64,000 nt of DNA from Thiobacillus sp. 63-78 (lineage in GTDB: Bacteria; Pseudomonadota; Gammaproteobacteria; Burkholderiales; Thiobacillaceae), in assembly GCA_001899765.1 (NCBI GenBank), contig MKWM01000019.1, positions 138,538 through 202,537 of the forward strand, written 5' to 3'. A program made the position numbers and the translations under genes. A model generated the notes under the pieces. That model did not search any database and was not told where the DNA came from. It saw only the letters and a list, made by a program, of their open reading frames with translations. Below are positions 12,594-29,361 of the stretch, piece by piece. Numbering within the stretch: the stretch's first letter is position 1; every line of letters begins with the position of its first letter.

Positions 12594-12669
12594 TTCATTA
12601 CTCCTATCCAATATTTATGGCCGGTGCGCGCCGGCATGCGGACCGCCGCAGCGATCCAGGGCTGCCGCA

Positions 12670-12900: not shown

Positions 12901-12941
12901 TGCAGTTCTCCTGAAAACATTGGTTCAATTTCACAGCCCAC

Positions 12942-13395: not shown

Positions 13396-14241
13396 TCAAC
13401 CACGGTGCCAGCTGAAACGTTTGATCAGCATCACACAGATGCTGTCCAGCACGAAACCGACCACGCCGATCACCAGGATCAAGCCCATGAGATGCGCGTA
13501 TTCCAGACCCTCGCGTGCATCCTCGACGGCAAAGCCGAAACCGGTGGTGACCCCAAGAAATTCGGCCGGGATGATCACGATCCAGGCGACCCCGAGCGCC
13601 AGGCGAATACCGGTCAGAATATCAAACGTGATCGCCGGCATGATGATCCGCGTCACCATGTGCCAGGGTTTGGCCCCCAGGTTGCGTGCCACCTTGAACC
13701 AGGCGGGATCGACTTTGGCAAGACCGGAAGCGGTGGCAAACGCGACCGGCCAGACGGCGGCGATCGCGATCAGGAAAATAATGGCCGCATCCCATTCCGA
13801 GAACACCACCACCGCGATCGGTTCCCAGGAGAGCGGACTGATCATGCGCAGGAACTGGAATGGCACGTTGGTCAGCCGTTGAAACCAGCGGATACGCCCG
13901 ATCAGGATGCCCAGCGGGATACCGATGATGATCGCCAGGGCCAGCCCCGTACCCAGCCGGTAGCTGCTACTCTTCAACGCCCCGGGAATCGCTCCGAATT
14001 GCCACAGTTCCGGCAGGACCTTGAGGGCCGAGATGGGTCCAAAGTCGCTGAACATTCCCATACTGGGGTTCAGCGTGACGATGTAGATCCCAACGCCCCA
14101 GAGGATGAAGAGCGCACCCAGGCCGATGAAAAAATGCAGCGACTTGTCGGCCGAGTTCTTGAGTGCCCGTGACAGACAGTTTCCACTCAGGCCGGCAGTG
14201 ACGACTGTGCTGTGTGCTGTGCTGGTTTGACCGTTGCTCAT
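13396..14241 (-). CDS. ABC transporter permease, SsuC/NrtB type (second of two)
   Basis: 281 residues with about six transmembrane helices and the binding-protein-dependent permease loop (AWIVIIPAEFLGVTTGFGFAVEDAREGL). It belongs to the nitrate/sulfonate/taurine/cyanate permease group. A very similar permease is encoded just upstream, so the channel is probably a heterodimer. ATG 14241 has a GGGG-type ribosome-binding site; the ATG at 14262 has none. The preceding gap of about 200 bases is the largest in the operon. The substrate is inferred to be thiocyanate from context. Confidence 0.8.
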   Translation of the reverse strand: MSNGQTSTAHSTVVTAGLSGNCLSRALKNSADKSLHFFIGLGALFILWGVGIYIVTLNPSMGMFSDFGPISALKVLPELWQFGAIPGALKSSSYRLGTGLALAIIIGIPLGILIGRIRWFQRLTNVPFQFLRMISPLSWEPIAVVVFSEWDAAIIFLIAIAAVWPVAFATASGLAKVDPAWFKVARNLGAKPWHMVTRIIMPAITFDILTGIRLALGVAWIVIIPAEFLGVTTGFGFAVEDAREGLEYAHLMGLILVIGVVGFVLDSICVMLIKRFSWHRG

Positions 14242-14442
14242 TGCGCACCCCGCACTGTCCATGCAACAAAGTTGAAAAACGTCTGGCCGCGAGGCGCCCA
14301 GTCGATCAAATACGTGTCGTTCATAGCGTATAACTTCTTGTCAACGTTCATGTGTATGTCCAGACGAGGCATGTGGTCATCGACCGGCAGCCCCGCGTTT
14401 CCAGAAGGCGACCCCTGCCGGTGCGAGAACGTCCCCGGCCCA

Positions 14443-15261
14443 TCACCCTCGATGCCAGCTGCTGCGATTGATGATCACAACCAGAATGCTGTCGAGGAAA
14501 TAGCCGACAATACCGATCGTGACCACCATGGCGGTCAGGTGGTCGTACGAAAGCGTCTCGCGTGCATCCTTGATGGAATAACCCAGGCCAGACGTCACGC
14601 CGAGATACTCGGCGGGGACGATCACGATCCAGGCCACCCCCAAGGCAAGACGCATGCCGGAGAATACGTCGAACGAGATCGCCGGCATGATGACCTTGGT
14701 CAGAATGTGCCAGGGCCGGGCACCCAGGTTGCGCGCCACCTTGAACCAGTTCGGATCCACCTTGGCCAGGCCCGCCGCGGTGGCGAACATGATCGGCCAG
14801 ACTGCCGCGATCGCAATCAGGAAAATGATTGAACCGTTCCACGTGGCGAACACCAGTACCGCAATCGGCATCCATGAAAGCGGACTGATCATTCGCACGA
14901 ACTGGAATGGCGAGTTGGTGTAATCGCGGAACCACTTGACGCGCCCCATCAAGATCCCGATCGGCACGCCAATGACGATGGCGATCAACAGGCCCATCCC
15001 CAGGCGATAGCCGCTGGCGGCCAGCGCGTTCTGGATTTTGCCCATCTCCCACAACTCGGGAAACGCCTTCAGCGTGGGAACCAGTCCGAACTTGGCGAAG
15101 TTTTTCGTCGACGGGTCGTTGACAAGAAGGTAGCCCGCAATCGACCAGAGGATGGCCAGGATCGCGATACCCCCCGCGGCCCAGCCAATATTCTGTACGA
15201 CCGGGTGCTTCATCAGGCGGCAAATGCCGCCCTCCTGGGCGGTGGTCACTGCAACACTCAT
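14443..15261 (-). CDS. ABC transporter permease, SsuC/NrtB type (first of two)
   Basis: 272 residues, six predicted helices, same loop motif (AWIVIVPAEYLGVTSGLGYS) as the second permease, with which it shares long blocks, pointing to tandem duplication. The start overlaps the stop of the binding-protein gene by four bases (ATGA), a strong sign of coupled translation. Expected to be in the inner membrane, importing a small anion. Thiocyanate is the best candidate. Confidence 0.8.
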   Translation of the reverse strand: MSVAVTTAQEGGICRLMKHPVVQNIGWAAGGIAILAILWSIAGYLLVNDPSTKNFAKFGLVPTLKAFPELWEMGKIQNALAASGYRLGMGLLIAIVIGVPIGILMGRVKWFRDYTNSPFQFVRMISPLSWMPIAVLVFATWNGSIIFLIAIAAVWPIMFATAAGLAKVDPNWFKVARNLGARPWHILTKVIMPAISFDVFSGMRLALGVAWIVIVPAEYLGVTSGLGYSIKDARETLSYDHLTAMVVTIGIVGYFLDSILVVIINRSSWHRG

Positions 15262-16688
15262 ATCACAATCACCTCTTTGCGCTCGAACGGATCGCCTTTT
15301 TGCGGCACGCTCAGATCCTTTCTCCATGCCGGGTTGGCTTCAAGCGCTTTTTTGATGTAGGTGTAGTTGACCAGATCCTTGGCCACGTGATCGGCGGTCA
15401 GGTTCTTCAGGAAATCCAGGTCGCCGCCCACCACGGTTTCCCTCATGTCCTCGACCACATCCTTGGTGGCACTCGGGAACGGCCAGCCCTGGAAGTTGAT
15501 GCGGCTCTGCTCCCATTCCGGATGCTTGATGGCGGGTGGCTTCGAGTAATCGGCCGGGTTGTAGAACAGGATCGCGCGTTCGATCACATCGGCCGGGAAC
15601 GGCATGTAGCGTTTGCCATCCTTGGACATCATCTGCGCCACCGCCTTCTTGTTATTGGTGATATAGAGCTGCGCCTCGACGATGGCGTTATGGACGTGCT
15701 GCGCCCACTCGGCGCGGGCAGGGTCCATGACATCGTCCTCGTGCATGATGACCACGCAGCAGGGGTGTCCCTTCCAGATGTCGCCGGTGAAGCGCAGCAT
15801 CACGCCGCCCGCCTTGAGTTCGCCGAGCGCATTGAACGGTTCGGCGACGCAATAGCCGTCGATCTGCCCCGCCGCAAGCGCGGGCGGCATGTCGGGCGGA
15901 GTCAGCACAATGAGGTTGCACTCGTTGGGGGCGAGCTTCGCATTCTGGGGCCGGGCCACCGGCGTAATGCCGGCTGCACGCATGACTTTCTGCGAGATGA
16001 TATTGTGGATCGAATACCAGTACGGGACGGCAAACTGCTTGCCGCCCAGTTGCTCGGCCGACATGATGCCGCTCTTCTTGCTGACGATGATGCCGGAGCC
16101 GTTGGTGTGGTTCCAGGCCGTGATCTTCACCGGGAACTTGTTGTTGTACCGCATGTAGATCGGTACCGGAATCAGCATGTGCGTGAGGTTGAAACGCTGG
16201 GACGAGAAGGCCTCGACCAGGGGCGACCAGCCGCGAATCAGCGTCGGCGGCTCCGATTTGAGCCCTTCTTTCTTGAAAAAGCCCATTTCATGCGCGACCA
16301 GCAGCGTCGTCGCATCGGTAATCGGGAGATATCCGATCTTGACCACCGGATCGAAGGGTTTGGAGAACTTCTTTTTTTCTGCCGCGAAGGCGGACGATGA
16401 CATCATCCCGCCCAGGCCGCCAAAGCCCCCCATGGCGGCGATTCCCGCCATCTTGAGCATGTCGCGCCGGCTGACACCCGTACCGAGAGCTGAACTGAAG
16501 AGCGGGTCGTAATCGATCGCCAGGCTGGGATCTTCCATGCCATCGGCGATATCCGGATTGCCGGGCATCATGGCCTGCATGCGCGGGTCAACAATCGGAC
16601 GGGCCTTGCCGCACGTACCGCATGAACATCCATCGACATGCACCAACGGACGCGGCTGGCCATGCTCTTCGTATAGATACTTTTTCAT
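15258..16688 (-). CDS. Tat-exported substrate-binding protein (NrtA/SsuA-like)
   Basis: 476 residues. The mature part (from about residue 105) is a CmpA/NrtA/SsuA-like binding protein. Export is by a twin-arginine signal (SRRDMLKMAG near residues 73-82, hydrophobic stretch to AFA near 102). Unusually, about 70 residues precede the twin-arginine motif, including a cysteine cluster (DGCSCGTCGKARP near residues 20-32). The protein should capture the imported anion in the periplasm. Thiocyanate is inferred from its place between scn genes; cyanate, nitrate and sulfonate are alternatives for the family. Confidence 0.8.
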   Translation of the reverse strand: MKKYLYEEHGQPRPLVHVDGCSCGTCGKARPIVDPRMQAMMPGNPDIADGMEDPSLAIDYDPLFSSALGTGVSRRDMLKMAGIAAMGGFGGLGGMMSSSAFAAEKKKFSKPFDPVVKIGYLPITDATTLLVAHEMGFFKKEGLKSEPPTLIRGWSPLVEAFSSQRFNLTHMLIPVPIYMRYNNKFPVKITAWNHTNGSGIIVSKKSGIMSAEQLGGKQFAVPYWYSIHNIISQKVMRAAGITPVARPQNAKLAPNECNLIVLTPPDMPPALAAGQIDGYCVAEPFNALGELKAGGVMLRFTGDIWKGHPCCVVIMHEDDVMDPARAEWAQHVHNAIVEAQLYITNNKKAVAQMMSKDGKRYMPFPADVIERAILFYNPADYSKPPAIKHPEWEQSRINFQGWPFPSATKDVVEDMRETVVGGDLDFLKNLTADHVAKDLVNYTYIKKALEANPAWRKDLSVPQKGDPFERKEVIVI

Positions 16689-16788
16689 TCTCGGTCTCCT
16701 AATTATGTGAAGGCCGGCGGGTCCGGCCGTTATGTGCCCATTCCATCCGGAAGGGTTCGAGCAATCTCAATCCATCAGGACCATCCAA

Positions 16789-17580
16789 TCAGGCAGCCAG
16801 CGTGGCGGACTGCGGTTTGGTGTAGTTGGCGGCTTCCTGGAACGTCGCCATCAGACGCGTACGCAAGGCCTGGACCGCATCATCGTGACGATCGCGCGGG
16901 TCGGGCAGGTCGATATCCAGTTCGTGAACGATATTTCCCGGCGAGCCCGCCATGATCACGGCGCGATCGCCCATGATCACAGCCTCGTCGATGTCGTGCG
17001 TCACGAAGACGATGTTGAAGCCCTTGCGCTTGGCGATGCTGCGCACGTCTTTCTGGAGGGAAGCACGCGTGAAGGCGTCGAGCGCCGAGAACGGCTCATC
17101 CAGCAGCAGGAGTTCCGGTTCCATCACCAGCGAACGCGCAAGCGCCACGCGCTGCTGTTGCCCCCCCGAGAGATCCTGTACGTTGGCCGTCGCGAACTCC
17201 TGGAGTTCGACCAGCTTGATCGCCTCCGTCACGCGTTCTGCGATTTCCTGTTTGGACCAGCGTCCAAAGCTCAGGCCGACGCCGACATTCTGGGTCACCG
17301 TCATCCAGGGAAACAGATGCGGCGCCTGGAACATCATGACCCAGCGGGGCGAAGGGGCGGTAATTTCCGTACCGTTGAGCAGAACCTTGCCCTCGGTCGG
17401 CTTCAGGACGCCTGCCAGAATATGAAGAAGTGTCGACTTGCCGCAGCCGGAACGACCGATGATCGCCAGCGCCTCACCGGGCGGCGACACCAGATCAACA
17501 CGATTGAACGTCACGCCGCTGCGCGAACCGTAGCGGTGGGTCAGGCCCTGGATCTTGATTTCTGTTCCGCGTATTGCCAT
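16789..17580 (-). CDS. ABC transporter ATPase, SsuB/NrtD type
   Basis: 263 residues with Walker A (GRSGCGKST), Q-loop (MMFQAPHLFPW), signature (LSGGQQQR), Walker B (LLLLDEPFSALD) and H-loop (VTHDIDEA). All residues for ATP hydrolysis are present. It powers the importer formed with the two permeases and the binding protein downstream. It lies 88 bases after the hydrolase activator gene. No cyanate- or nitrate-specific regulatory domain is attached. Confidence 0.87.
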   Translation of the reverse strand: MAIRGTEIKIQGLTHRYGSRSGVTFNRVDLVSPPGEALAIIGRSGCGKSTLLHILAGVLKPTEGKVLLNGTEITAPSPRWVMMFQAPHLFPWMTVTQNVGVGLSFGRWSKQEIAERVTEAIKLVELQEFATANVQDLSGGQQQRVALARSLVMEPELLLLDEPFSALDAFTRASLQKDVRSIAKRKGFNIVFVTHDIDEAVIMGDRAVIMAGSPGNIVHELDIDLPDPRDRHDDAVQALRTRLMATFQEAANYTKPQSATLAA

Positions 17581-17668
17581 CTGCCTATCCTCTGTTGTCT
17601 ATTTTTACCGCCGGCGCCGCATCGGCTCCGGCGGGATTGCGGGAACCGACGCTACTTATCCGGCCCCA

Positions 17669-18094
17669 TCAAACGCTTTTGAGACGCTTCCCGACTTCCT
17701 CCAGACGGCTGGCCAGTTCCGCTTCGTCAATCAAGCCCCGCTTGATCAGCGAATGCGCCAGCGCCAGAAGCTGCCGCTCGGGAAAAGGCACGTCTTCATA
17801 AAGCGTTTCAGACAACTCATCCTCTTCAGCCCGGCGCTCGAGCGAAGGCAGCGCGCAAGAGCCCGCCTCGACCTGATCGTATGGCTTGACGCACGAGTCG
17901 CCGGCGAGCATGTCGCACGTCGCCTCCAGGTCGATTTTCCAGGGCGGATCGGGATTCGTGACGCCATATTGCGCCGCCAGATCCTCCCAAACCCGTCCAT
18001 GACTGCGAACGCTCTCAAGCACCTCGATCTCGGTCAGGTCGATGCCGGTCCAGCGTCTTGCCGAGCCGGCAGCCCCTTCTTCAACTATGGCCAT
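17669..18094 (-). CDS. thiocyanate hydrolase activator, P15K type
   Basis: 141 residues related to nitrile-hydratase activators and to the P15K protein of T. thioparus. Such proteins are needed to load cobalt and mature the hydrolase. The N-terminal third resembles the activator domain (FEDLAAQYG type, here VWEDLAAQYGV) and the C-terminal half is a helical segment (ELASRLEEVGKRL). Cysteines at about 60 and 67 (TCDMLAGDSC) could take part in metal transfer. Its position directly after scnC supports the call. Known from the family: co-expression is required for activity. Confidence 0.8.
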   Translation of the reverse strand: MAIVEEGAAGSARRWTGIDLTEIEVLESVRSHGRVWEDLAAQYGVTNPDPPWKIDLEATCDMLAGDSCVKPYDQVEAGSCALPSLERRAEEDELSETLYEDVPFPERQLLALAHSLIKRGLIDEAELASRLEEVGKRLKSV

Positions 18095-18126
18095 GATTGA
18101 CTCCTTAGGCTAATCTGCGTCAGTAC

Positions 18127-18873
18127 TCAGTGGTCGTGATGAACCGGACGAATCGCCTTGATTTTCGGACGCTTGGTGTTCGAGGTAATGCCGGGTTTCG
18201 GCACCGCGACGCCAATCAGGCAATCCCGCGTCACGATCTCGGCCAGTTGATCCTCGGTCCAGCCCTCCGTGCCCTCGGGACGGGTCGGCATGACGATGTA
18301 GCGGGTCTTCTGGTTGGAATCCGCCACACGGACCTGAACTTCCGCCGGCAGTTGCAGGCCGAACTCGGCGAGCACCTGACGCGGCCAGCGCACCAGGCGA
18401 CGCCGGTAATTGGGCGTGCGATACCACTCGGGCGACTGCCCCAGAATCGGGCGGGGATAGCACGAGCACAGGGTGCACACCACGACATGCTTCAACGTGG
18501 GCGTATCCGCCAGAACGCGCAGGTTGCAGTAATCGCTGGGGGTGCCGAACTGGGTGGGCGGGCTGGTGACCCAGTTGACGCCCACTGCCTTGCTGGCCTC
18601 GACGCCATCTTCAATACAAAGCTTCTTGTACTCGGGATCCAGCCAGGCCTTGGCAACCAGGCGCGCCGCGGGCAGCGGGCCAAGGGTATGCACGTATTCC
18701 TTCCAGACGCGGTGGTCTTCAGCGGAAAAAAGTCCCTTTTCGATGGCCAGTTCGCGCACCGCCATCTCGAGAATTTCAAAATCACTGACTTCATCAACCA
18801 TCGGAGCCGGCTTGTGGCCGTGGCCGTGGTCATGGTCGTGGTCATGGTCGTGGTCATGGTCGTGATCAGACAT
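18127..18873 (-). CDS. scnC: thiocyanate hydrolase gamma (catalytic) subunit
   Basis: 248 residues, homologous to nitrile-hydratase alpha. The metal-binding claw is CTLCSC at residues 133-138, with threonine in second place, the form found in cobalt enzymes rather than the serine form of iron enzymes. In the T. thioparus enzyme the corresponding cysteines are oxidised to sulfinate and sulfenate and hold a non-corrin Co(III). The reaction is thiocyanate plus water to carbonyl sulfide and ammonia in the cytoplasm. The first 20 residues are a His-Asp repeat. It is third in the operon after scnB and scnA. Confidence 0.95.
   Translation of the reverse strand: MSDHDHDHDHDHDHDHGHGHKPAPMVDEVSDFEILEMAVRELAIEKGLFSAEDHRVWKEYVHTLGPLPAARLVAKAWLDPEYKKLCIEDGVEASKAVGVNWVTSPPTQFGTPSDYCNLRVLADTPTLKHVVVCTLCSCYPRPILGQSPEWYRTPNYRRRLVRWPRQVLAEFGLQLPAEVQVRVADSNQKTRYIVMPTRPEGTEGWTEDQLAEIVTRDCLIGVAVPKPGITSNTKRPKIKAIRPVHHDH
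18813..18867. repeat. 12-base tandem repeat coding the His-Asp tract of ScnC
   Basis: Near-perfect copies of a 12-base unit (GACCATGACCAC on the coding strand) encode alternating His and Asp at ScnC residues 3-20. Such repeats change length by slippage, so strains should differ here. Alternating His/Asp suits metal-ion binding. Confidence 0.85.
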
Positions 18874-18911
18874 GTGTATTTCCTCTAGTCAATAAATGTC
18901 CGCGAGCCGAT

Positions 18912-19283
18912 TCAAGCCGACTCAAGATAGCGTTCCGGAACCTCGGTCTCCAGCGTGTCGTTGCTGAAGGTATCGCTGTACTCGGGCCAAAGTTCCTTCT
19001 GCGCAAACACGATGCTGTAGAACCACTCCGGATGGTCCACGTTGCCAAAGGCCTCGTCTTCGGCCGCGGGGCTCTCATACACCAGCTTGACGACAGTGCC
19101 CGTCGCGCCTCGCGTATAGGTCATGGTGCGGGTGTAAAACAGATCGGGCAGATCCTTGATGCGCACGCGATCGCCTTCCTTGAACTTGGCCGGACCGGCC
19201 TTGCCGCTGAAGCACTGGGGGTCGCCAATGCCCGTGGCCATCTTGGCATGATGGGTTCTGTCGTAAACAGGTTTGGTACTCAT
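18912..19283 (-). CDS. scnA: thiocyanate hydrolase alpha subunit
   Basis: 123 residues, close to the 126 of the T. thioparus subunit and homologous to the C-terminal SH3-like half of nitrile-hydratase beta (FKEGDRVRIKDLPDLFY... YTRGATGTVVKLVYESPAAEDEAFG). It holds no metal itself but completes the active-site pocket. The ATG at 19283 has a GAGGTG ribosome-binding site. It is 22 bases after scnB and 38 bases before scnC. Confidence 0.93.
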   Translation of the reverse strand: MSTKPVYDRTHHAKMATGIGDPQCFSGKAGPAKFKEGDRVRIKDLPDLFYTRTMTYTRGATGTVVKLVYESPAAEDEAFGNVDHPEWFYSIVFAQKELWPEYSDTFSNDTLETEVPERYLESA

Positions 19284-19305
19284 ATCATCTTCACCTCTGG
19301 AAAAT

Positions 19306-19779
19306 TTACTTGGCCTGGGGCGTGACGTATTCACCCAGTTTGTGTTCGGCCTTGGCACGTTTTTTCAGCTCGTCGATCTTGTTGACGAGTTCCGTGAGCG
19401 TGACGTACTGCTTGTCAACCAGGATGCGGGCCGCGGTCAGCAACCACCGGCCGTAATAGGGCAGCCCCAGATACTGCGTCTGGCCGACATCCACGTTCTG
19501 CTTGCGGCGGCGCTCCTCGGCAGTCCATACCCCGCGCCAGGCGAGGCACTCGCAGGTCGCGAAGGTATTCAATTCCCAGATTTCCTCTTCCTTCTCGGCC
19601 CACACGATCGGAACATCCGCCTCGCCGCCGACGTCGTGCGACGCGCGGGTATACGCGCGATACAGCGTATGATCGATCAGGTCGGGCGAAGGCGCATGTG
19701 TCTGCTTGTGCAGCGCTGGCTGCATGTAGCCGACCGTCTCGAGATGCCGGTGTACCTCATTTCTGGTAGACGATGACAT
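19306..19779 (-). CDS. scnB: thiocyanate hydrolase beta subunit
   Basis: 157 residues, the same length as the T. thioparus subunit. It corresponds to the N-terminal half of nitrile-hydratase beta and carries HDVGGEADVPIVWAEKEEEIWEL and TCECLAWRGVWTAEERRRKQN. The ATG at 19779 is preceded by an AAAGGAG ribosome-binding site. It is the first gene of the long operon ending at the DUF1641 gene. A LysR-type operator (19971-20018) lies 191 bases upstream, so the whole operon is probably induced through it. Confidence 0.93.
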   Translation of the reverse strand: MSSSTRNEVHRHLETVGYMQPALHKQTHAPSPDLIDHTLYRAYTRASHDVGGEADVPIVWAEKEEEIWELNTFATCECLAWRGVWTAEERRRKQNVDVGQTQYLGLPYYGRWLLTAARILVDKQYVTLTELVNKIDELKKRAKAEHKLGEYVTPQAK

Positions 19780-20378
19780 TGTGTTGACTCCTTTGTGGAT
19801 TACGAACAAGTCGGCCGTCACGCGGGATACGATTGCCTGACTTCCGTGCCAGCCCGACTTCTGCAAATTACCCGTTCAAGAAACCGGCCCTTTCCGGTGA
19901 CACCATCGCTTCACGTCGTGGTGAATCCCAGTACCGATCTCTGATGCTGCATCATGCGTCATCCGCGTAATTGCTTCCAAGTCTTAATTCCGATGGCTCC
20001 CATAGGGTTTTGCTATGGGGCTGAAACACGCTTGCAGGCTGGCTTTGCGGCGTGTGACAAGGGGGAGATCACATGACGGCCAAGATTCAAGGCCGCGCGT
20101 TTCGAGCATTCCAGGGTGTGCGACGGATCCACCGCTCCAAACCCTTCAGCGTACGGGCCGGATCGTCACGAGCGCTGCGGCTCTATGGACACCCTGCGTG
20201 GATTTCGTTTGTCGCGTGAATCGGATGCGGGCCATGCGCCTTCCGGTCTCTGAAGGAAGGGTTACGCGTGGCGAGAAGACCGTTCATTCGACGCGCGCGT
20301 CATCCCGGCCTGCCGCGCGTGCCCGCCCGGCAATCCCATGCGGAGAACGTGCCGGGTCGATCCGCCGGATGGCGCTGG
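19780..20378. other. scn promoter region and downstream region of the TPP gene
   Basis: 599 bases without a convincing gene. It holds the 48-base LysR-type operator at 19971-20018, a 13-base palindrome (TGATGC-T-GCATCA) at 19942-19954 and the leader of scnB. The part from 20020 to 20378 lies behind the TPP-enzyme gene; reading frames here lack a good ribosome-binding site and family resemblance. No clear terminator for the TPP gene was seen. Confidence 0.6.
19971..20018 (-). promoter_or_regulatory. LysR-type operator, site 1 (scn operon)
   Basis: In the direction of transcription it begins with a dyad CCATAG-N7-CTATGG and ends with the shared core ATCGGAATTAAGAC. It aligns without gaps with three other sites in the window (40 of 48 bases identical to site 2). 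It faces scnB, 191 bases from its ATG. The dyad-plus-second-box layout is typical for LysR activators. Confidence 0.8.
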
Positions 20379-22154
20379 CTAACGATCGGTTTTTCTGTCG
20401 AATGAAGCGGGAGGCGTGCCCGCGCGGCTCCCTTGCCCCGCCATGACCGCCACGGGCGCCACCGCGGCCTGATCGATCACGACATCGATCACGGCCGGCC
20501 GGTTCGCATCGATCGCTTCCCTGATCGCCTTGCCGATATCGCGCGGATCCGTCACACGAACGCCCCAGGCGCCCATCTCGCGGGCCATGGCGGCGAAATT
20601 CGTGTCTCCGAACTCCGACAGCTTGTCCAGATTGGGGGAGCCCGGCCAGACGCTCCGCAGCAGATGGGTCTGAAAAGCCATGGCCTGATTGTTCAAGACC
20701 ACCGTGATCAGATTGATCTCGTTGCGCACCGCCGTCTCGATCTCGGCCAGATGGTAGAAAAACCCGCCGTCGCCCGTAAACGCCACCACGGTCCGTTCGG
20801 GCGCCGCCGCCTTGGCGCCCATGGCCGCCGGAAACGCCCAGCCGAGGCTCCCTTCGCAGTGCAGAAAATTCCTGCCCGCGGGAAGATCCATGAAAACCCC
20901 CGCCCAGGTGCCGACATACCCGGTGTCCGCGACGAACAGCGTATTCCGCGGACAGGCGTTCACCAGTTCGTCCGCCAGTTGTTCCGGCCGGATCGGGATC
21001 CTGTTTCCGTGCATGTGCGCATGTTCGCCCGCACGCCACGCCTGCAGATCCTGTTGCGCCTGCCGCACCCACTCGCCTGGCCCACTTCGCTTCGTCACGC
21101 CTGCCGCGTCCAGCAACTGCCGCAAGACGGTGCGCGCATCGCCGATCAGCGGCAGGACGTTCGGATAGTTCGCGCCGGGCTGCGCCGGATTGATGTCGAT
21201 GTGGATCACGCGAACGCCCGGCTTCGGCAGCCGCCTCATATTCGTCGTGGCGCCGCCCTGGTGCCCTCCCACGTAGAGCACCAGATCCGCTTCGGCGATC
21301 ACCGCGTCGGTGGGGGGGCGCCGGTAGGTGCCGGTGACGCCGAGCGCCAGCGGATGGCGTTCATCGATACTACCCTTGCCGTTCAAGGTGGTGGTGACCG
21401 GCAATCCCAGTTGCTCGGCCAGCGCCGTCACTTCCTCCCAGGCGCCGGACACGACCGTGCCGCGGCCGCAGACCATGACCGGGCGCGCCGCGCGCCGGAT
21501 CTCCAGCAGGGCCTGCCCGACCAGTTCGTCGTCCGCTCGCGGACGGAATGCCGGATAGGAAAAATAACGCGGGTCGAGATAGCGGAAATCAAACTCCGCC
21601 TCCGCATCCTCCAGCGCGCCATCCAGGTACAGATGGACCGGCCGCGGCGCCCCGGTCGTCATTTCCCGGTAGGCCTTGCCGAAAAACTCCGCCATCCGGT
21701 CGATCGATCTCACTTCCGCGTCGTATTTGGTCACCGGGCGGAAATCCACATAGGCTTCCTGATACGAATTGCCCTGGTAGCGCGAACCCGGCAGCACGGG
21801 CGTCACCGCGAGCAGCGGGGTATGGCTCTGCCAGGCATCCGCGAGGCCGGCATACAGATTGGTGGCGCCGGGCCCGCCTTGCACGATCACCATCGTTGGC
21901 CTGCCCGAAGCCTGGGCATAGCCGTCGGCCATGTAAGCCGCGGCCTTTTCCGAGTGGCACAACACGCGCTTGACCGGATCCTTCGCCAGCTCGACGAGCG
22001 TGGGGTACAGGAAGGTCGGAACGAAAAACACCGCCTTGACTCCCGAGCGCCGCACCAGCTCCGCCAGGAACTGCTGGCCCTTCATTCTCTGCGGGCACTC
22101 AGCCACCGCTTCGTCCACGGAAGACTCATGCTGATCCATTGCTGCAAGGTTCAT
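20379..22154 (-). CDS. thiamine-diphosphate-dependent enzyme, acetolactate-synthase family
   Basis: 591 residues with three domains: the N-terminal Pyr domain with the catalytic glutamate (CHSEKAAAYMADGYA, about residue 68), a central domain, and the C-terminal PP domain with the TPP/Mg motif (GDGGFFYHLAEIE... LNN, about 470-500). The family includes acetolactate synthase, glyoxylate carboligase, benzoylformate decarboxylase and oxalyl-CoA decarboxylase; I cannot place the substrate. It is the last gene of a cluster with a DGC protein and thiocyanate-hydrolase-like ScnA/ScnB, which is unexpected for this family. Confidence 0.8.
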   Translation of the reverse strand: MNLAAMDQHESSVDEAVAECPQRMKGQQFLAELVRRSGVKAVFFVPTFLYPTLVELAKDPVKRVLCHSEKAAAYMADGYAQASGRPTMVIVQGGPGATNLYAGLADAWQSHTPLLAVTPVLPGSRYQGNSYQEAYVDFRPVTKYDAEVRSIDRMAEFFGKAYREMTTGAPRPVHLYLDGALEDAEAEFDFRYLDPRYFSYPAFRPRADDELVGQALLEIRRAARPVMVCGRGTVVSGAWEEVTALAEQLGLPVTTTLNGKGSIDERHPLALGVTGTYRRPPTDAVIAEADLVLYVGGHQGGATTNMRRLPKPGVRVIHIDINPAQPGANYPNVLPLIGDARTVLRQLLDAAGVTKRSGPGEWVRQAQQDLQAWRAGEHAHMHGNRIPIRPEQLADELVNACPRNTLFVADTGYVGTWAGVFMDLPAGRNFLHCEGSLGWAFPAAMGAKAAAPERTVVAFTGDGGFFYHLAEIETAVRNEINLITVVLNNQAMAFQTHLLRSVWPGSPNLDKLSEFGDTNFAAMAREMGAWGVRVTDPRDIGKAIREAIDANRPAVIDVVIDQAAVAPVAVMAGQGSRAGTPPASFDRKTDR

Positions 22155-22218
22155 CGGTTTCTCCTTGATCGTCTCGTCGTCCCGGTCCGGATGCCCGCCT
22201 CGGGCATGGCCGCCCGCG

Positions 22219-22656
22219 TCAATCGCGATGGCCGCAGGTCACTTCGCCGCCGTCCGCCGCCGCCGTCGGCGGGCTGTCGCCATCCGGGCGAATCTCGCGC
22301 GCCAGCGCGACGACCTGCGGATAGAGGCGCTCCATATCGACATCCGCGGGATCCTGGCCGTAACGCTTTTTCACCCCCTGCTCGTGCAGTTGCAGGTAGC
22401 GGGCGGGCGCCACGCCGTGGCGTTTCAGACTCTCCCTGACGCAGCCCAGCGGACAGCCGTCGAGTGCGAGGATCGGCCGGCCGGACGTGGCCTGACGGAC
22501 GAAGCGCGGGATGTCGGCCCCGACACCGGCGATGCAGGACATCTGCGCCTCGCCGTCATGATCGAGACACAGGGCCAGCCTGTTGGCGGTTTGAGCCGCG
22601 CTGGAGCAGCCCGAGCAGCTGTACACCAGCGGAAGATGGTTGCTTGGTCGAGCCAT
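22219..22656 (-). CDS. DGC-type cysteine-rich (putative zinc-binding) protein
   Basis: 145 residues. Cysteine motifs are VYSCSGCSSAAQ near residue 15, MSCIAGVGAD near 40 and LDGCPLGCVRESL near 70, the last containing the Asp-Gly-Cys triplet that names the family. Such proteins are thought to bind zinc or another metal; function is unknown. The ATG at 22656 has AGGAGG four bases upstream. It lies between the ScnA-like gene and the TPP-enzyme gene and may supply metal or sulfur. Confidence 0.7.
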   Translation of the reverse strand: MARPSNHLPLVYSCSGCSSAAQTANRLALCLDHDGEAQMSCIAGVGADIPRFVRQATSGRPILALDGCPLGCVRESLKRHGVAPARYLQLHEQGVKKRYGQDPADVDMERLYPQVVALAREIRPDGDSPPTAAADGGEVTCGHRD

Positions 22657-22725
22657 GACCCCTCCTGGAACACACACCGGTCAGTTGTCAGCGGGCGTGG
22701 ATCGCGTTCGCGTCGCCACGCCGAC

Positions 22726-23166
22726 CTATGCCGGCTCCAGCCAGCGTTCGGGCATCTCAGCCTGTACCGTGTCTTCGGGATGGGTATCCGGGTCATCGGC
22801 CCCCCATAGATCCACATGCCGGAAACTCACCAGATAAAACCATTCCGCCTGATCGATACGGCCCCAGGCCTCGTCTTCCGGGGTGGGACTTTCGTACACG
22901 ACGGAGACGACCGTCCCCGCTACCCCGCGGGTATAGCCCGGGGTCTGGTTATAAAAAACATCCGGCAGATCCTTGACCCGCAGCTGATCGCCTGCCTTGA
23001 ACCTGGGTGGGCCACCTGCCTTTCCCTTGTAACACTGCGGATCGCCCACACCTTCGGCGATTTCAGCGATCCGCAGACGATCGTACAGGGGCGAGTCGGT
23101 CGCTTTGCCCTGGCACTCATGGGCGCCTGACCCCATGGCCAATCCGGCATCGTCATTTCTGTTCAT
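22726..23166 (-). CDS. paralogue of thiocyanate hydrolase alpha subunit (ScnA-like)
   Basis: 146 residues, longer than ScnA by about 20 at the N-terminus. The shared core is unmistakable: GDPQCYKGKAG, FKAGDQLRVKDLPDVFY, YTRGVAGTVVSVVYESPTPEDEAWG and the MPERWLEPA end. It is divergent enough from ScnA not to be a recent duplicate. It overlaps the ScnB-like gene by 14 bases. No ScnC-like gene is in this cluster, so it must pair with the ScnC from 18127-18873, with an unlinked one, or act without it. Confidence 0.85.
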   Translation of the reverse strand: MNRNDDAGLAMGSGAHECQGKATDSPLYDRLRIAEIAEGVGDPQCYKGKAGGPPRFKAGDQLRVKDLPDVFYNQTPGYTRGVAGTVVSVVYESPTPEDEAWGRIDQAEWFYLVSFRHVDLWGADDPDTHPEDTVQAEMPERWLEPA

Positions 23167-23578
23167 AGCGTTTTTTCACCTCATCAATCTTGTTGGTCAG
23201 TTCCGCCAGCGAGACGAGCCGCTTGTCGACCATGGCCCGCGTGGCGGAAAGCAGGAATCTCCCGGCGTAGGGCAGGGCAAAGTATTGCTTGTCGCCCAGG
23301 TCGACGACCCGGCGAAGCTTTTCCGTATGGTTCCAGATGCCGCGCCATGCCAGACATTCGCAGGTCACCATGGTGTCCTTCTCCCAGGCCATCGGCTCTC
23401 TTTCCTGCAACTGGATCGGGCCGCCTTCTTCGCCGCCGAGGTCATGGGCCGTTCGCATGAACTCCTTGAACGTGCCGCCGAATAATTCCGGATTGGGGAA
23501 TTCCCTGTCGTCGATATGTTCTGAAGCGGTCGAATTCGTGGCAGCCCCCGGCTGCCGGAAGGGCTTATGCGTGGTCAT
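23153..23578 (-). CDS. paralogue of thiocyanate hydrolase beta subunit (ScnB-like)
   Basis: 141 residues. Segments shared with ScnB are AHDLGGEEGGPIQLQERE, TCECLAWRGIW, YAGRFLLSATRAMVDKRLVSLAELTNKIDEVKKR. The N-terminus and the charge pattern after the TCECLAWRG box (NHTEKLRRVV instead of TAEERRRKQN) differ. ATG 23578 has GGAGGG seven bases upstream, and the start lies inside a short upstream reading frame. It opens the scnAB-like/DGC/TPP cluster, headed by LysR-type operator site 2. Confidence 0.85.
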   Translation of the reverse strand: MTTHKPFRQPGAATNSTASEHIDDREFPNPELFGGTFKEFMRTAHDLGGEEGGPIQLQEREPMAWEKDTMVTCECLAWRGIWNHTEKLRRVVDLGDKQYFALPYAGRFLLSATRAMVDKRLVSLAELTNKIDEVKKRYEQK

Positions 23579-23732
23579 GAGCGCGCCCTCCCTGCCGGAT
23601 GGATTTCAGCCGGAACCCCTGAATACACGCTGCGTGCCCGCGCCTGGATACCGTTTCCGGCATGAGAACAGGCGTCGCGTCGCCCGCCCGGTCACCGTTT
23701 TCAGCATTTTCCTGTCTGCTCAATGCAATCAT
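23565..23732 (-). CDS. possible 55-residue leader or small protein
   Basis: A short reading frame (MIALSRQENAENGD start) with a strong AAGGAG ribosome-binding site six bases before its ATG at 23732, ending 14 bases inside the ScnB-like gene. That arrangement is typical for translational coupling. The sequence is not recognised and has a single cysteine. It could be a real small protein, a coupling leader or chance. Confidence 0.35.
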   Translation of the reverse strand: MIALSRQENAENGDRAGDATPVLMPETVSRRGHAACIQGFRLKSIRQGGRAHDHA

Positions 23733-24173
23733 TCCGCTCTCCTTGTTCCACGCCATCAACGATCGTGACGAACCTGACGGATCGTCCTGCTGCCGGAGGC
23801 CTGACGTTCAAGGCCATCCGGACCCCACGCTCCACCGGGCGGCCTTCCGTCCGCTATCCACCTCTGTATTTCGAGGGCCCGACATTGCCCGCCCCTCGAT
23901 CATCGTCACCGGCACACAGCCCTCGACATACAATTTATTAACATCTTCATATCCTTTTTAAGACGCAACCCCGCGCGCACGCCGCATCTCGCCATGGGTC
24001 ACCAACAAGTCGGTTTGACCATTGAGCCGGCCACGCCGATGCCATTTGACTATGCACCCGCGCAATCATTGTTTCAAAGTCTTAATTCCGATGATCCCCA
24101 TCGGATTTTGCTATAGCGCCCCACTTCTTCCGAATGATCCCTGCATCTCCCGCCGGTCGATGATACGAACGGA
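23733..24173. other. long leader of the scnAB-like cluster
   Basis: 441 bases that hold LysR-type operator site 2 (24069-24116) and about 335 bases between it and the first possible start codon, much longer than the 191-195 bases at the other three sites. A local AT-rich patch lies near 23930-23965, with an AAAAAGGAT and a 13-codon frame on the minus strand. No clear structured RNA was recognised. Confidence 0.5.
24069..24116 (-). promoter_or_regulatory. LysR-type operator, site 2 (scnAB-like cluster)
   Basis: Aligns over 48 bases with site 1 and has the core ATCGGAATTAAGAC unchanged. It also contains a perfect dyad TCCGAT-N7-ATCGGA. It faces the ScnB-like gene. Confidence 0.78.
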
Positions 24174-24995
24174 TCAGAGGCGACGCGCCATATACGTGTA
24201 GTAATTGCACGCGGCGAAGAAGGTTCCGTTCTCCATCGCCCGACGCTGCGCGTCGTGCCAGGCTTCCAGCGCGTCCCCGGGCACCAGCCCCGCCTTCCTG
24301 ACATAGGGCACATAGGTTTCCGCAAACGATTTGAAATAGCTGGCGTGCCCGATTTCAATCACCGCATCGCCCCACGCGTCGGCCAGCTTCAGACCCAATT
24401 CGGGCAGAATCCGCGGCAGATCGCGCATGATCCGCGGATTGTTGAAGGTGACGTTCGTCAGCGCTTCGTCGACGCGGCGGCCGAGGTCATGGTCGGGATA
24501 GGCATAGGTCAGGGAAGCGTAGTCCCCATCAAAAACGACCACCGTCCCGCCTGGACGGACAAGCCGCGCCATCTCGCCCAGCACGGCGAGCGGCGCGGTG
24601 ACATGGCTGATCAGCGTATGGGCGATCACGACATCGAAGCTTGCGGCGGGAAGATCGACGCCATGCGCATCGCCGACCCGGAAAGCAATCCGGCTGTCGA
24701 CACGTTCATCCCGGGCGAACCCGTTTGCGGCATCGATGAAAGAACCGCATTGGTCCACGCCCAACGCCTGACCGGTGAAATCGTCCCGCCGCGCGAGCGT
24801 CCGCAGTACGACGCCCGTGCCGCAGCCCACCTCCAGGACCCGGGCCAGCGGAGGCAAGGCCAGCCGTGCCACATATTTGTCGAGCAAGCGCGTAAAGACG
24901 TCGTCGCGCGCGCGGCTTTCGAGCCGTGCGGCAAGGCGCTCACGCGCAGGCTCATCGAGTTCGTTGACAAAACGGTGGGGATCACGCGCAACCAT
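24174..24995 (-). CDS. class I SAM-dependent methyltransferase
   Basis: 273 residues with the SAM-binding motif I (VLEVGCGTGVVL, about residues 53-64), motif II acidic residue (ALGVDQC) and motif IV (FDVVIAHTLIS). It is a UbiE/COQ5-like small-molecule methyltransferase by overall layout; the acceptor is unknown. It is transcribed in the same direction as cynS but is separated from it by a good terminator, so it is probably its own unit. A sulfur-compound acceptor would fit the neighbourhood but nothing shows it. Confidence 0.75.
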   Translation of the reverse strand: MVARDPHRFVNELDEPARERLAARLESRARDDVFTRLLDKYVARLALPPLARVLEVGCGTGVVLRTLARRDDFTGQALGVDQCGSFIDAANGFARDERVDSRIAFRVGDAHGVDLPAASFDVVIAHTLISHVTAPLAVLGEMARLVRPGGTVVVFDGDYASLTYAYPDHDLGRRVDEALTNVTFNNPRIMRDLPRILPELGLKLADAWGDAVIEIGHASYFKSFAETYVPYVRKAGLVPGDALEAWHDAQRRAMENGTFFAACNYYTYMARRL

Positions 24996-25237: not shown

Positions 25238-25678
25238 TCACCATGATTTATAAGGCAGGAACTTGCCGCTGATGGTGACCAGCACGCGGTCGCCTTTCGG
25301 ATCTTCCTGCCGGTCGATGTTCATGGTGAAGTCGATGGCGCTCATGATGCCGTCACCGAATTTTTCGTTGATCATCTCCTTGATCGTTTCGCCATACACG
25401 TTAAGCATTTCATACCAGCGATAAATCAATGGGTCCGTCGGAATGGGGCGGTCCCAGGTCTTGGTCGGGAAACATTGCAGCGCAGTCGAGACCGCGTCAT
25501 CGAGACCGAGCGCCTTGGCCACCGCATCGGCCTGGGGCTTCTCCAGGTGGTTCATGCCCAGGCAGGCCGAGCAGACAAATTCGTCGGACATGCCCGCAGC
25601 CCTGGCAATATCGGCCCACTTCAGGTTGTTCTTGAATTTGGCCTGAAGAATGGCCTCTTTCATTTCAGCTTTATTCAT
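25238..25678 (-). CDS. cynS: cyanase (cyanate hydratase)
   Basis: 146 residues matching cyanase from end to end. The N-terminal helix-turn-helix-like domain is followed by the catalytic domain with Arg87, Glu90 (YRWYEMLNVYG) and Ser113 (MSAIDFTM), equal to Arg96, Glu99 and Ser122 in E. coli. The decameric enzyme turns cyanate and bicarbonate into ammonia and carbon dioxide. ATG 25678 is chosen over an upstream start because it gives the family length. It follows the cobalt-permease gene after 102 bases and is probably co-transcribed with it under operator site 3. Confidence 0.95.
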   Translation of the reverse strand: MNKAEMKEAILQAKFKNNLKWADIARAAGMSDEFVCSACLGMNHLEKPQADAVAKALGLDDAVSTALQCFPTKTWDRPIPTDPLIYRWYEMLNVYGETIKEMINEKFGDGIMSAIDFTMNIDRQEDPKGDRVLVTISGKFLPYKSW

Positions 25679-25780
25679 TCCGTACCTGCTCCTTGCAAGC
25701 CAGCCGGGCGGGCGGGCCGCCCGGCAAGCGTTGTCATTCATTCATCGAGCGCCACGCCACCGCTCTGATGCTCGCCGGGA

Positions 25781-26639: not shown

Positions 26640-26665
26640 TTCACAACAATGGATCAACTGGCTAT

Positions 26666-26713
26666 AGTTTTCCATGTCTTAATTTCGATTGGTGCTATAA
26701 GCTTTGACTATGC
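26666..26713 (-). promoter_or_regulatory. LysR-type operator, site 3 (cobalt permease/cyanase; overlaps regulator start)
   Basis: Gapless 48-base match to sites 1, 2 and 4, with core ATCGAAATTAAGAC (one change). It faces the permease gene, 192 bases from its ATG. Its other end covers the ATG of the divergent LysR gene at 26710, so binding could also repress that gene. Confidence 0.75.
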
Positions 26714-27696
26714 AACGCAATCTCGTCTTCCCGCGCTCCATTCGCTACCTGATCGCGGTCGCGGATATGCAAAGCTTCACGCGAGCTGCGGAATTCCTGT
26801 GCGTGTCGCAGCCCACGTTATCGCAGCAGATCAAGAATCTGGAAGACCTTCTTGACGTGCAACTGCTGGACCGGTCCGGACGATCGATCCAGTTGACCGC
26901 TGCGGGAGAGGTCTATCTGCACTATGCCCGTCGCGCCCTGCGGGAACTGGACGAAGGGAAGCGCGCCATTCATGAACTGCAGGACCTGAGCCGCGGCTCG
27001 CTCCGTCTGGGGATGACGCCGATTACCGACCATCTGGTCAGCCCCTTGCTCGAATCCTTCAACACCCGCTATCCCGATATCACCGTCAGCACACGGGAAC
27101 TGCCGCAGGATGCCGTCGAGACCGAAGTGGCGGAAGGCAACCTCGATATCGGCATCGCCTTTACCAATGTGCTCTCGACCATCGCCCGCTCGAACGAGAT
27201 CGACACGCATGTCCTGTTCGATGAAACGCTGGATCTTGCCGTGGGTAAATCCCACCCCCGCGCCGGACAGACCGGGGCATTGACTCCCCAGATGCTGGAG
27301 AACGAGTCGCTGGTCCTGCTCAACACCGATTTTGCCCTGCGGCGTCACGTCGACCAGTACTGTCACGAGCAGGGCATCACGCCGCGTATCGCGATGGAAA
27401 CCAATTCGCTCAGCGTCATTGTCGAAGTTGCCCGCCTGGGCCGGCTGGCCACCATCCTGCCCCACAGCATCATCTGCTCGCATCAAGGCCTCTATCCGTT
27501 GCCGCTGCAACCCGACATGCCTCATCACACGATCACCCTGATCTGTCGTAAATCAGGGTATAAAAGCCCCGCCTGCACGGCGTTCGGCGTACTGGCAACC
27601 CTCTGGAGCCCGCATCGGCCAGGCCAGAAACCATTGGAGGCCCATACCGACTCCGGCCTCGAATCGAAATCGGGATCCGTCACTTCCGTGCAGTGA
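26710..27696 (+). CDS. LysR-family regulator, CynR-like
   Basis: 328 residues: winged helix-turn-helix at about residues 8-65 (FTRAAEFLCVSQPTLSQQIKNLED) and a periplasmic-binding-protein-like effector domain (about 90-300). The domain order and the SRGSLRLGMTPITDHL start of the effector domain resemble CynR, the cyanate-responsive activator. It is divergent from the permease-cynS unit, the usual place for a LysR activator. It is the best candidate to bind the four operators found here. The effector could be cyanate or thiocyanate. ATG 26710 is preferred over TTG 26704. Confidence 0.85.
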   Translation: MQRNLVFPRSIRYLIAVADMQSFTRAAEFLCVSQPTLSQQIKNLEDLLDVQLLDRSGRSIQLTAAGEVYLHYARRALRELDEGKRAIHELQDLSRGSLRLGMTPITDHLVSPLLESFNTRYPDITVSTRELPQDAVETEVAEGNLDIGIAFTNVLSTIARSNEIDTHVLFDETLDLAVGKSHPRAGQTGALTPQMLENESLVLLNTDFALRRHVDQYCHEQGITPRIAMETNSLSVIVEVARLGRLATILPHSIICSHQGLYPLPLQPDMPHHTITLICRKSGYKSPACTAFGVLATLWSPHRPGQKPLEAHTDSGLESKSGSVTSVQ

Positions 27697-28008
27697 CGCC
27701 TGTTGCCGATTGGCCCGGGATCACGCAGACACGCCGGAAACCTTGTGATGGCCCATGCCGGGAATCCATAGCCCATTTCTATTGGTGCAATCGGAATAAG
27801 GTCTTGGACAAGGATTTCCGGCTCGCCCATAGTCCCTTCCAGGACGGGCCATGAATGAAATGGCCGCCGCACGCGCCCTGTTGCGGCGGGATGTGCGCGG
27901 TACGGACCACGCGCGAACGATATGTCCAGTCAATCCGCGCATCCGGACTGCAAGATCGCACTTCGGGCGGATGAACGAGCATCAGGTGTTTCGACACGGA
28001 GGAGCGGA
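27697..28008. other. leader of the GlcF-like gene with operator site 4
   Basis: 312 bases with site 4 at 27766-27813 and the leader to the start codon at 28009. Some short frames run through it but none has a good ribosome-binding site or recognisable product. No terminator for the LysR gene was seen. Confidence 0.55.
27766..27813 (+). promoter_or_regulatory. LysR-type operator, site 4 (GlcF-like gene)
   Basis: Same 48-base layout on the opposite strand from the other sites, beginning CCATAG-N7-CTATTG, with a more diverged core (ATCGGAATAAGGTC). It faces the GlcF-like gene, 195 bases from its ATG, matching the spacing at sites 1 and 3. Confidence 0.65.
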
Positions 28009-29361
28009 ATGAAAATCAAACTGGGCGAAACCTATCGCGATACCGACCTGGGACGCGAGGCGGAAGCGCTTCTGCTCCCTTGCGTGCAATGCGGTCAATG
28101 CACCTTCACCTGCCCCACCTTCCGTCTGCTCGACGACGAATGGGATGGACCGCGCGGCCGCATCTACCTGATCAAGCAAATGCTGGAAGAACAGCCGCCC
28201 AGCGCAGCCGATCTGCTCCCCGCCTATTCCCTGGCCACACTTGAAGGCAGGACACCGGGCGCGAACGTGCAATGGCATCTCGATCGCTGCCTCGGCTGCC
28301 GCTCCTGCGAAACCAGTTGTCCGCAGGGCGTTCATTATGGCCGCCTGCTCGACATCGGACGGGAACTGGCGGAACAGGAAGCCCCCCGCCCGCTGAAGGA
28401 GAAACTGGCGCGGCGGGCGCTGCGTGCCGTGGTTCCGCACCGCTACCGCTTCACCGCGTTGCTGCGCACGGGCCAGGCGCTACGGCAATTCCTGCCGCAG
28501 GATCTTCGCGCGCGGATTCCCCGGCGCCGCCGGGCAGGGCCCTGGCCCGACCGCTCTCATGGCCGCACCATGCTGATCTGGCAGGGCTGCGTGCAGCCCG
28601 GCCTGGCGCCGGACATCAATGCCGCGGCCGCCCGCGTGCTGGATCGCTTCGGCATCCGGCTGATTCCCGCAAGCGACGGCTGCTGCGGCGCCCTGAGCCA
28701 TCACATGTCCGAGACCGGCGAGGCGCGCGCGTACATGCGCAGGAACATCGATGCCCTGTGGCCGCACGTCGAAGCCGGCATCGAAGCCATCGTGCTCACC
28801 GCCAGCGGATGCGGCATGCACTTTCGCGAATACGGCCAGTTGTTGCATGACGATCCCCGCTACCGCGACAAGGCGGCACGCATCTCGGCGCTGACCCGGG
28901 ACATCGCGGAAATCGTCGCCGCGGAATGGCAGGATGACCCGCTTCATGCCCTGCCCGCGTCCCGGCCGCCGCGGCGCATCACCTTCCAGTCGTCCTGCAG
29001 CCTGCAGCATGGCGAAAAACTCAATGGCGTGGTTGAAAAACTGATGAAGCGCGCCGGCTTCAAACTGCTCCCCGTCGCCTACCCCTTCATGTGCTGTGGC
29101 GCCGCGGGCTCCTATTCCCTTCTGCAACCGACGCTCTCGGCATCGCTGCGCACGCGCAAGCTGGAAACCTTGCTGGCCAGCCGTCCGGAAGCCATTGCAA
29201 CCGCCAACATCGGCTGCCTGACGCATCTGGCCCTGGCGTCGCCGGTACCGGTCAGCCACTGGATCGAACTGCTGGACGAAACATTCCGCGCGGCAGACTC
29301 CCGGCCGCACGGCCAACCGGAATCATCCATGAACCCGGCGTCCGTCAACGCCCCTTCCTGA
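28009..29361 (+). CDS. GlcF-like iron-sulfur oxidoreductase subunit
   Basis: 450 residues. Two ferredoxin-type [4Fe-4S] motifs (CVQCGQCTFTCP near residue 25 and CLGCRSCETSCP near 93) are followed by two cysteine-rich CCG domains (SDGCCGALSHH and FMCCGAAGSY). This is the layout of the glycolate oxidase iron-sulfur subunit and of HdrD-type proteins. No glcD or glcE flavin subunit is adjacent, so its electron partner is unknown. ATG 28009 has GGAGGAG upstream. LysR-type operator site 4 precedes it, linking it to thiocyanate/cyanate metabolism. Confidence 0.8.
   Translation: MKIKLGETYRDTDLGREAEALLLPCVQCGQCTFTCPTFRLLDDEWDGPRGRIYLIKQMLEEQPPSAADLLPAYSLATLEGRTPGANVQWHLDRCLGCRSCETSCPQGVHYGRLLDIGRELAEQEAPRPLKEKLARRALRAVVPHRYRFTALLRTGQALRQFLPQDLRARIPRRRRAGPWPDRSHGRTMLIWQGCVQPGLAPDINAAAARVLDRFGIRLIPASDGCCGALSHHMSETGEARAYMRRNIDALWPHVEAGIEAIVLTASGCGMHFREYGQLLHDDPRYRDKAARISALTRDIAEIVAAEWQDDPLHALPASRPPRRITFQSSCSLQHGEKLNGVVEKLMKRAGFKLLPVAYPFMCCGAAGSYSLLQPTLSASLRTRKLETLLASRPEAIATANIGCLTHLALASPVPVSHWIELLDETFRAADSRPHGQPESSMNPASVNAPS

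Follow-up and report, generated by a model that had tools for sequence, protein, structure and literature searches.

Four described systems stand closest to the locus analysed here: i) thiocyanate hydrolase ScnABC (2dd4 in the Protein Data Bank, PDB), which turns thiocyanate into carbonyl sulfide and ammonia and whose gamma subunit ScnC carries the claw CTLCSC; ii) the beta subunit of nitrile hydratase (NHase), together with activators of the P14K/P15K type, chaperones that carry and swap the metal subunit; iii) the DGC family (PF08859); and iv) the thiamine diphosphate (ThDP) enzymes acetohydroxyacid synthase (AHAS), glyoxylate carboligase and 2-hydroxyacyl-CoA lyase. According to an excerpt of PMC7587978, Arg52 and Arg157 of the NHase beta subunit bond to the modified cysteines and mutation of one is said to abolish activity, while arginine-cysteine salt bridges are said, in a portion of PMC7193024, to drive the swapping of NHase subunits. 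Here we describe a four-gene cassette of Thiobacillus sp. 63-78 (scnB2, scnA2, a DGC gene and a ThDP-enzyme gene; 20379-23578, minus strand), located in a stretch of 64,000 nucleotides (the window: the whole stretch analysed, i.e., C19:138538-202537 of a 3.21-Mb genome in 74 contigs). Among open-licence PMC papers on scn operons or on this gene set we found no description of the cassette, nor any paper that combined thiocyanate hydrolase with acetolactate synthase, and it is not mentioned in the portions of PMC6934394, PMC5458468, PMC8061750 and PMC10098168 that were covered. The claim of an earlier note on this DNA that no described system has this set thus stands within that literature.

The cassette probably represents a new helper module and not another system for degrading thiocyanate. 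In the reading that we prefer, at a probability of roughly 0.4, it would be a conserved accessory module of a CynR-controlled thiocyanate/cyanate regulon, built around the ThDP enzyme and a repurposed ScnA2/ScnB2 pair.

A four-gene cassette conserved in eleven genomes

Open reading frames (ORFs) and Pfam matches (NHase_beta_N 1.3e-13, NHase_beta_C 2.6e-21, DGC 1.5e-30 and three TPP_enzyme domains) confirmed the cluster as the earlier note had described it, without a scnC of its own. ScnB2 and ScnA2 are clear paralogues of the beta and alpha subunits of thiocyanate hydrolase: their closest solved relatives are those of 2dd4, they share 46% (ScnB2) and 54% (ScnA2) identity with ScnB1 and ScnA1, the canonical subunits of the window, and they mostly retain the motifs TCECLAWRG and GDPQC. 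The two proteins most likely still form an NHase-beta-type heterodimer. What sets the cassette apart from ScnABC is the missing gamma subunit with its claw, the replacement of both claw arginines and the added DGC and ThDP genes. Genome-wide, the only match to the NHase-alpha/thiocyanate-hydrolase-gamma family is the scnC of the first operon. A search of viral contigs with ScnB gave no relative.

A ScnB profile scan of one genome per species (84,980 species) yielded 104 relatives, and among the 79 loci kept from the best 80 of these the order scnB2-scnA2-dgc-ThDP was found in eight: metagenome-assembled genomes (MAGs) of Hydrogenophilaceae and Thiobacillus (L025 and L026), Proteobacteria (L027-L030) and Gammaproteobacteria (L031), and Acidiferrobacteraceae HyVt-429 (L032). 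A ninth cassette came from a complete genome (G378) in a sample of 369 genomes of the class, where a ThDP match at 1e-110 was present in three (the own genome, G378 and G177, the last being the same locus as HyVt-429). A tenth came from a Rhodospirillaceae MAG (G831, with ScnB locus L048), whose cassette and scn operon lie on different contigs; it was the only one with a ThDP orthologue (77% identical) among 50 genomes drawn from the 71 cassette-free loci, of which three others held 42-43% relatives without ScnA2/ScnB2 and 46 gave no ThDP match at 1e-100. In 299 genomes of the phylum searched with ScnA2, close matches occurred in the own genome alone, with four others at 33-36% identity; this search and the 369-genome sample are the few that were blind to scn. 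Including the window, the cassette therefore occurs in 11 genomes in the same order, which bears out the conservation of gene order on which the earlier note had staked its case.

One alternative takes the pair for a duplicate of scnBA that is decaying, or has been retained by chance, next to genes with no relation to it, as might be thought of a pair without a catalytic subunit of its own. We consider this very improbable: besides the order kept in 11 genomes, dN/dS was 0.010-0.228 in 24 comparisons (four genes and six pairs, from the window and L025-L030, i.e., seven of the 11 genomes), so that the four genes are under purifying selection, and each tree holds a single cassette branch. In trees of 86 ScnA and 86 ScnB rows, built by a quick method, the cassette rows formed one side of a single branch (one change; SH-aLRT 97 and 100); the cassette group of the ScnB tree has long branches joining next to it, one odd and very long row included, and its exact attachment is unsure.

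Claw arginines of ScnA2/ScnB2 and the ScnC of the same genomes

Alignment with the canonical subunits (identical ScnA and ScnB sequences counted once) revealed two replaced positions: i) ScnA column 74, Arg in 76/76 canonical sequences, is Gln in 10/10 ScnA2; ii) ScnB column 88, Arg in 75/75 canonical sequences (three rows, two of them P15-like and one odd, were dropped from this count), is Leu in five and His in five of the ten ScnB2. E85 and R87 of ScnB were also changed in all ten ScnB2, and R89 was kept. The G831 cassette (L217), which had not been used to find the pattern, likewise shows Gln at ScnA 74 and Leu at ScnB 88, bringing the changed pairs to 11/11.

With canonical ScnB and with ScnB2 alike, hhalign placed ScnB column 88 on residue 52 of NHase beta; equal spacing and hhalign together make R88, not R89, the Arg52-equivalent, the mapping being one by alignment and not by coordinates. 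ScnA column 74 aligned with Arg149 of the NHase beta chain 3qxe_B, while the alignment ranges for 1ire_B (49 to 132) would place it at residue 157. The Arg52 column is Arg in 73/73 P15 proteins, in 3/3 other short NHase_beta_N proteins taken as activators (three of seven such proteins entered this comparison) and in 3/3 NHase beta subunits. Thus, although the cassette pair shares the NHase_beta_N and NHase_beta_C domains with NHase beta and its activators, those examined keep the Arg52-equivalent and ScnB2 does not, and arginine loss is therefore not an activator trait; that activators keep this residue is a regularity seen in the present comparison, not a published definition. By alignment, the cassette pair is unique among the NHase-beta-type proteins compared here in its arginine loss. 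With neither claw arginine retained in any cassette pair, it is unlikely that the pair forms an ordinary second thiocyanate hydrolase by borrowing ScnC.

A full scnC was found in nine of the 11 cassette genomes, and in the other two (G060 and G061) scnC ends at contig ends. The co-occurrence with scnC that the earlier note looked for thus extends, as full gene or end, to 11/11 genomes, and is partly built in, since most of them were found via ScnB. The own genome and G062-G067 each hold one full scnC, G067 with a further fragment below the cut-off. A linked scnC-like gene in relatives, which would have spoken against a new system, turned up in form: the contigs of L025 and L026 open with 138 bases of a scnC 3' end, with scnB2 within ~200 bases, but these ends are ordinary ScnC (87 and 91% identical over 46 amino acids). 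In G060 the same scnC end also leads, on another contig, to P15, which suggests two scnC copies in that genome. When eight ScnC of cassette genomes were compared with 68 others (four duplicate loci left out), two columns (87 and 200) were weakly shifted and none cleanly, and the claw was unchanged in 8/8.

These data bear on two ways in which the pair might work with ScnC. First, ScnA2/ScnB2 could borrow ScnC to form a variant cobalt enzyme whose pocket is less positive and which acts on another, perhaps neutral, substrate (nitrile, cyanohydrin, hydrogen cyanide or carbonyl sulfide (COS)), the product of which the ThDP enzyme would use. The loss of E85, R88 and ScnA R74 in all ten pairs is as expected from a changed pocket charge, and the retained motifs, the scnC or scnC ends in every cassette genome (a single full copy where counted) and the operator common to the cassette and scnB1 fit as well. 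Yet the excerpt of PMC7587978 has NHase inactive after mutation of just one of two arginines that are both replaced here, and the ScnC of cassette genomes shows neither a clean shifted column nor an altered claw. The alternative holoenzyme sharing ScnC, the first option of the earlier note, is thereby weakened, and we regard it as unlikely. The two other options of that note, a scaffold pair and a new activity, still stand, though nothing in the data speaks directly for carbon-sulfur or nitrile chemistry.

COS hydrolysis was also considered and rejected as an explanation: Pro_CA (carbonic-anhydrase-type) matches were present in 11 of 20 genomes and absent from three of ten cassette genomes (G060, G061 and G062) versus six of ten cassette-free ones, i.e., in no inverse relation to the cassette, which is a weak argument against a COS substrate with two matches typed. 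By PDB search these two were a COS hydrolase in T. thioparus (L202) and, in the own genome (L206, C73:214520), a beta-carbonic-anhydrase protein resembling carbon disulfide hydrolase (3ten, 1.9e-46), a possible COS disposal enzyme.

Second, the pair could serve assembly, by binding ScnC before cysteine oxidation and handing it to ScnA1/ScnB1, or by parking ScnC. A pair without the arginine-cysteine salt bridges to which the portion of PMC7193024 attributes swapping would release mature ScnC, and in L025 and L026 the cassette lies closely 3' of a scnC end. On the other side, the proteins taken as activators (73/73 P15 and 3/3 others) keep the Arg52-equivalent, P15 is already present in the genome, most scn loci do without the cassette (8/79 have it) and the ThDP enzyme is left unexplained, which makes this role more improbable still than the variant enzyme.

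The DGC protein and the ThDP enzyme

The third protein belongs to PF08859 by score (105.8 bits against a cut-off of 27), and its five cysteine columns (14, 17, 41, 68 and 72) are invariant in 27 aligned DGC proteins (the wrong-frame row L132 left out). It thus resembles its family in score and cysteines and differs in having scn-type neighbours: around DGC genes at 19 other loci (L177-L194 and L131, from other Proteobacteria; 56 of 70 ORFs scanned) the flanks held SCP2 (UbiT-like; 7), Peptidase_U32 (3) and MoCF_biosynth (molybdopterin-binding; 3), with no scn-type family among 25 of 40 families listed. These neighbourhoods hint at anaerobic metabolism. Its predicted model (predicted local distance difference test, pLDDT, 86.6) had no PDB match at E 0.001.

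The ThDP enzyme is a subfamily of its own in which the general cofactor-site residues are kept. Full-length orthologues were 77-82% identical (a fragment 75%), the nearest other ThDP relatives 42-43%, and matches listed in 75 genomes of the class at most 32%. It scored below the cut-off of every one of the 25 NCBIfam families listed of 62 (top 332.7 versus 673), those of AHAS (TIGR00118, 319.5 versus 538.35) and glyoxylate carboligase (NF008431, 248.5 versus 791) among the scores below cut-off. With AHAS, glyoxylate carboligase and 2-hydroxyacyl-CoA lyase it shares three ThDP domains, and Glu69 and the GDG...NN motif are kept relative to 20 AHAS-like rows (rows not typed with the family library), to which it is only 25-29% identical. 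The PGGAVLH loop is shorter than in these rows, and the letters GARFDDRVTG and MVRQWQ, which we take to be the flavin adenine dinucleotide loop and acceptor site of AHAS, are replaced in 10/10 cassette enzymes. The predicted model (pLDDT 75.0) matched the folds of the three enzymes almost equally, glyoxylate carboligase and AHAS being the best.

As for the substrate, the presence of a GlcF-type gene in the same regulon makes glyoxylate a candidate, as a lead and not a result. Of the 42-43% relatives without ScnA2/ScnB2, L218 has a gene for FAA hydrolase nearby, and L215 and L219 have PF04199 cyclase genes; these and the other neighbours of the three led to no substrate conclusion. A second ThDP fragment (75% identical; L136 1-1208, G063) stands at a contig end with a CynR-like gene nearby, and represents a second copy or a strain mixture.

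Operators, the CynR-type regulon and the role of the cassette

A 17-base operator core has exact copies at 19979 and 24077, before scnB1 and the cassette (three matches with up to three mismatches in the window versus 0.04 expected), and in the two promoter regions a 47-base block around the operator is 85% identical, nothing else significant being common. A 50-base matrix, built from 23 of 24 scnB1 sites (the window's own included; the site list excludes three of the weakest), found four sites scoring at least 8 in the 64-kb window (Table 1). In the controls, no site of the reversed window reached 8, five Markov windows peaked at 3.2, and 47 loci lacking scn genes peaked at 4.7. Thus the operator that the earlier note had put in front of the cassette is real, but lies beyond the end at 23732 given there. 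Judging by position, CynR would be the protein that binds at these sites.

Table 1. Features of the cassette, its surroundings and the predicted operators (window coordinates)
Feature	Position	Strand	Remarks
scnB2	23153..23578	-	paralogue of ScnB (NHase-beta N-domain); K87 and L88 replace R87 and R88 of canonical ScnB; ORF overlaps scnA2 by 14 nt
scnA2	22726..23166	-	paralogue of ScnA (NHase-beta C-domain); Q74 replaces R74 of canonical ScnA
DGC-domain protein	22219..22656	-	conserved cysteines of the family present
ThDP enzyme	20379..22154	-	acetolactate synthase / glyoxylate carboligase superfamily, own subfamily
Canonical operon	13396..19779	-	scnB1-scnA1-scnC-P15-ABC transporter
scnB1, canonical	19306..19779	-	ORF and Pfam
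scnA1, canonical	18912..19283	-	ORF and Pfam
scnC	18127..18873	-	TIGR03887 399.8 bits; claw CTLCSC
P15-type activator	17669..18094	-	Arg52-equivalent kept
Methyltransferase	24174..24995	-	borders scnB1 in cassette-free relatives
Cyanase (cynS)	25238..25741	-	domain matches
LysR regulator CynR	26704..27696	+	NF008416 369.7 bits, cut-off 277
GlcF-type iron-sulfur subunit	27922..29361	+	NF008434 543.4 bits, cut-off 333; preceded by the fourth operator
CynR-type operator before cassette	24068..24117	-	matrix score 53.8
CynR-type operator before scnB1	19970..20019	-	score 58.1; in matrix training set
CynR-type site between cynS side and cynR	26665..26714	-	score 44.8
CynR-type site before GlcF-type gene	27765..27814	+	score 35.2

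For the cassette loci a matrix of 24 of 27 sites was used (the three left out were one truncated at its edge and two that had 8 and 9 mismatches). The predicted operator is tied to the cassette in 7/11: it stands directly before it in the window, L124, L027, L028 and L031, and in L029 and L030 it precedes a co-directional multicopper-oxidase-like gene (Pfam match from L029 only) in front of scnB2. The L032 locus starts at a contig end. Near the cassette of L027 lies a formate/nitrite-type transporter (12026-12964), with a CynR-type site ~500 bases beyond its 5' end (13487-13536, minus strand).

A conserved scn operon was reportedly described by Kantor et al. in 2015, as cited by others. Among 35 other genomes of the genus, six hold the cassette-free order cynS-methyltransferase-scnB-scnA-scnC-P15-transporter, with ~300-550 bases between methyltransferase and scnB; the window's cassette occupies exactly that gap, between methyltransferase and scnB1, with methyltransferase and cyanase past it and cynR on the opposite strand. 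The methyltransferase adjoining cynS was present in all six of these islands. The GlcF-type gene, placed in the CynR-type regulon by its operator, is found again in scn islands of related genomes (those of L029, L032 and L124 were typed), lying directly 3' of the ThDP gene in L032 and preceding scnB2 in L124. Matches to the GlcD model were found elsewhere in 18/18 genomes tested, none above the family cut-off.

Under the accessory-module reading, the ScnA2/ScnB2 pair, which lacks the two arginines by which ScnC's oxidised cysteines are held, would neither make a second thiocyanate hydrolase nor behave like the known activators, and would serve the ThDP enzyme as a scaffold or non-catalytic partner; the DGC protein may be a cysteine-rich metal or iron-sulfur partner; and the ThDP enzyme would join or split a small 2-oxo acid or aldehyde relevant to growth on thiocyanate. 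Several observations weigh against it: i) contact between ScnA2/ScnB2 and the ThDP enzyme is something we infer from operon structure alone; ii) the occurrence of the cassette with scnC would equally fit a ScnC partner; iii) of the columns invariant in canonical sequences, ScnA2 keeps 11/15 and ScnB2 19/26, so that docking on ScnC may persist, and the neighbouring R89 kept in ScnB2 could stand in for R88; iv) the search favoured scn-bearing genomes, the 369-genome sample of the class, blind to scn, having given two cassettes besides the window's own; v) no operator precedes the cassette in L025 and L026, where it follows the scnC end, or in G831 (L217), where the best site (15.8) lies ~4.6 kb from the scnB2 start, past the cassette; and vi) the GlcF link is loose, the gene belonging to the same regulon and standing outside the conserved four.

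A more specific version, possible though doubtful, is a new kind of ThDP system, in which an NHase-beta-type heterodimer left its metal subunit, became a dedicated partner of a ThDP enzyme together with a DGC protein, and is induced together with thiocyanate hydrolase so as to handle an unrecognised intermediate in the metabolism of thiocyanate, cyanide or glyoxylate. If true, a subunit pair of NHase type would have taken on a role beyond the hydratase, a case of neofunctionalisation that can be read off two residues, and the cassette would point to an unrecognised step in thiocyanate-driven growth, which is used for cleaning cyanide-bearing mine water.

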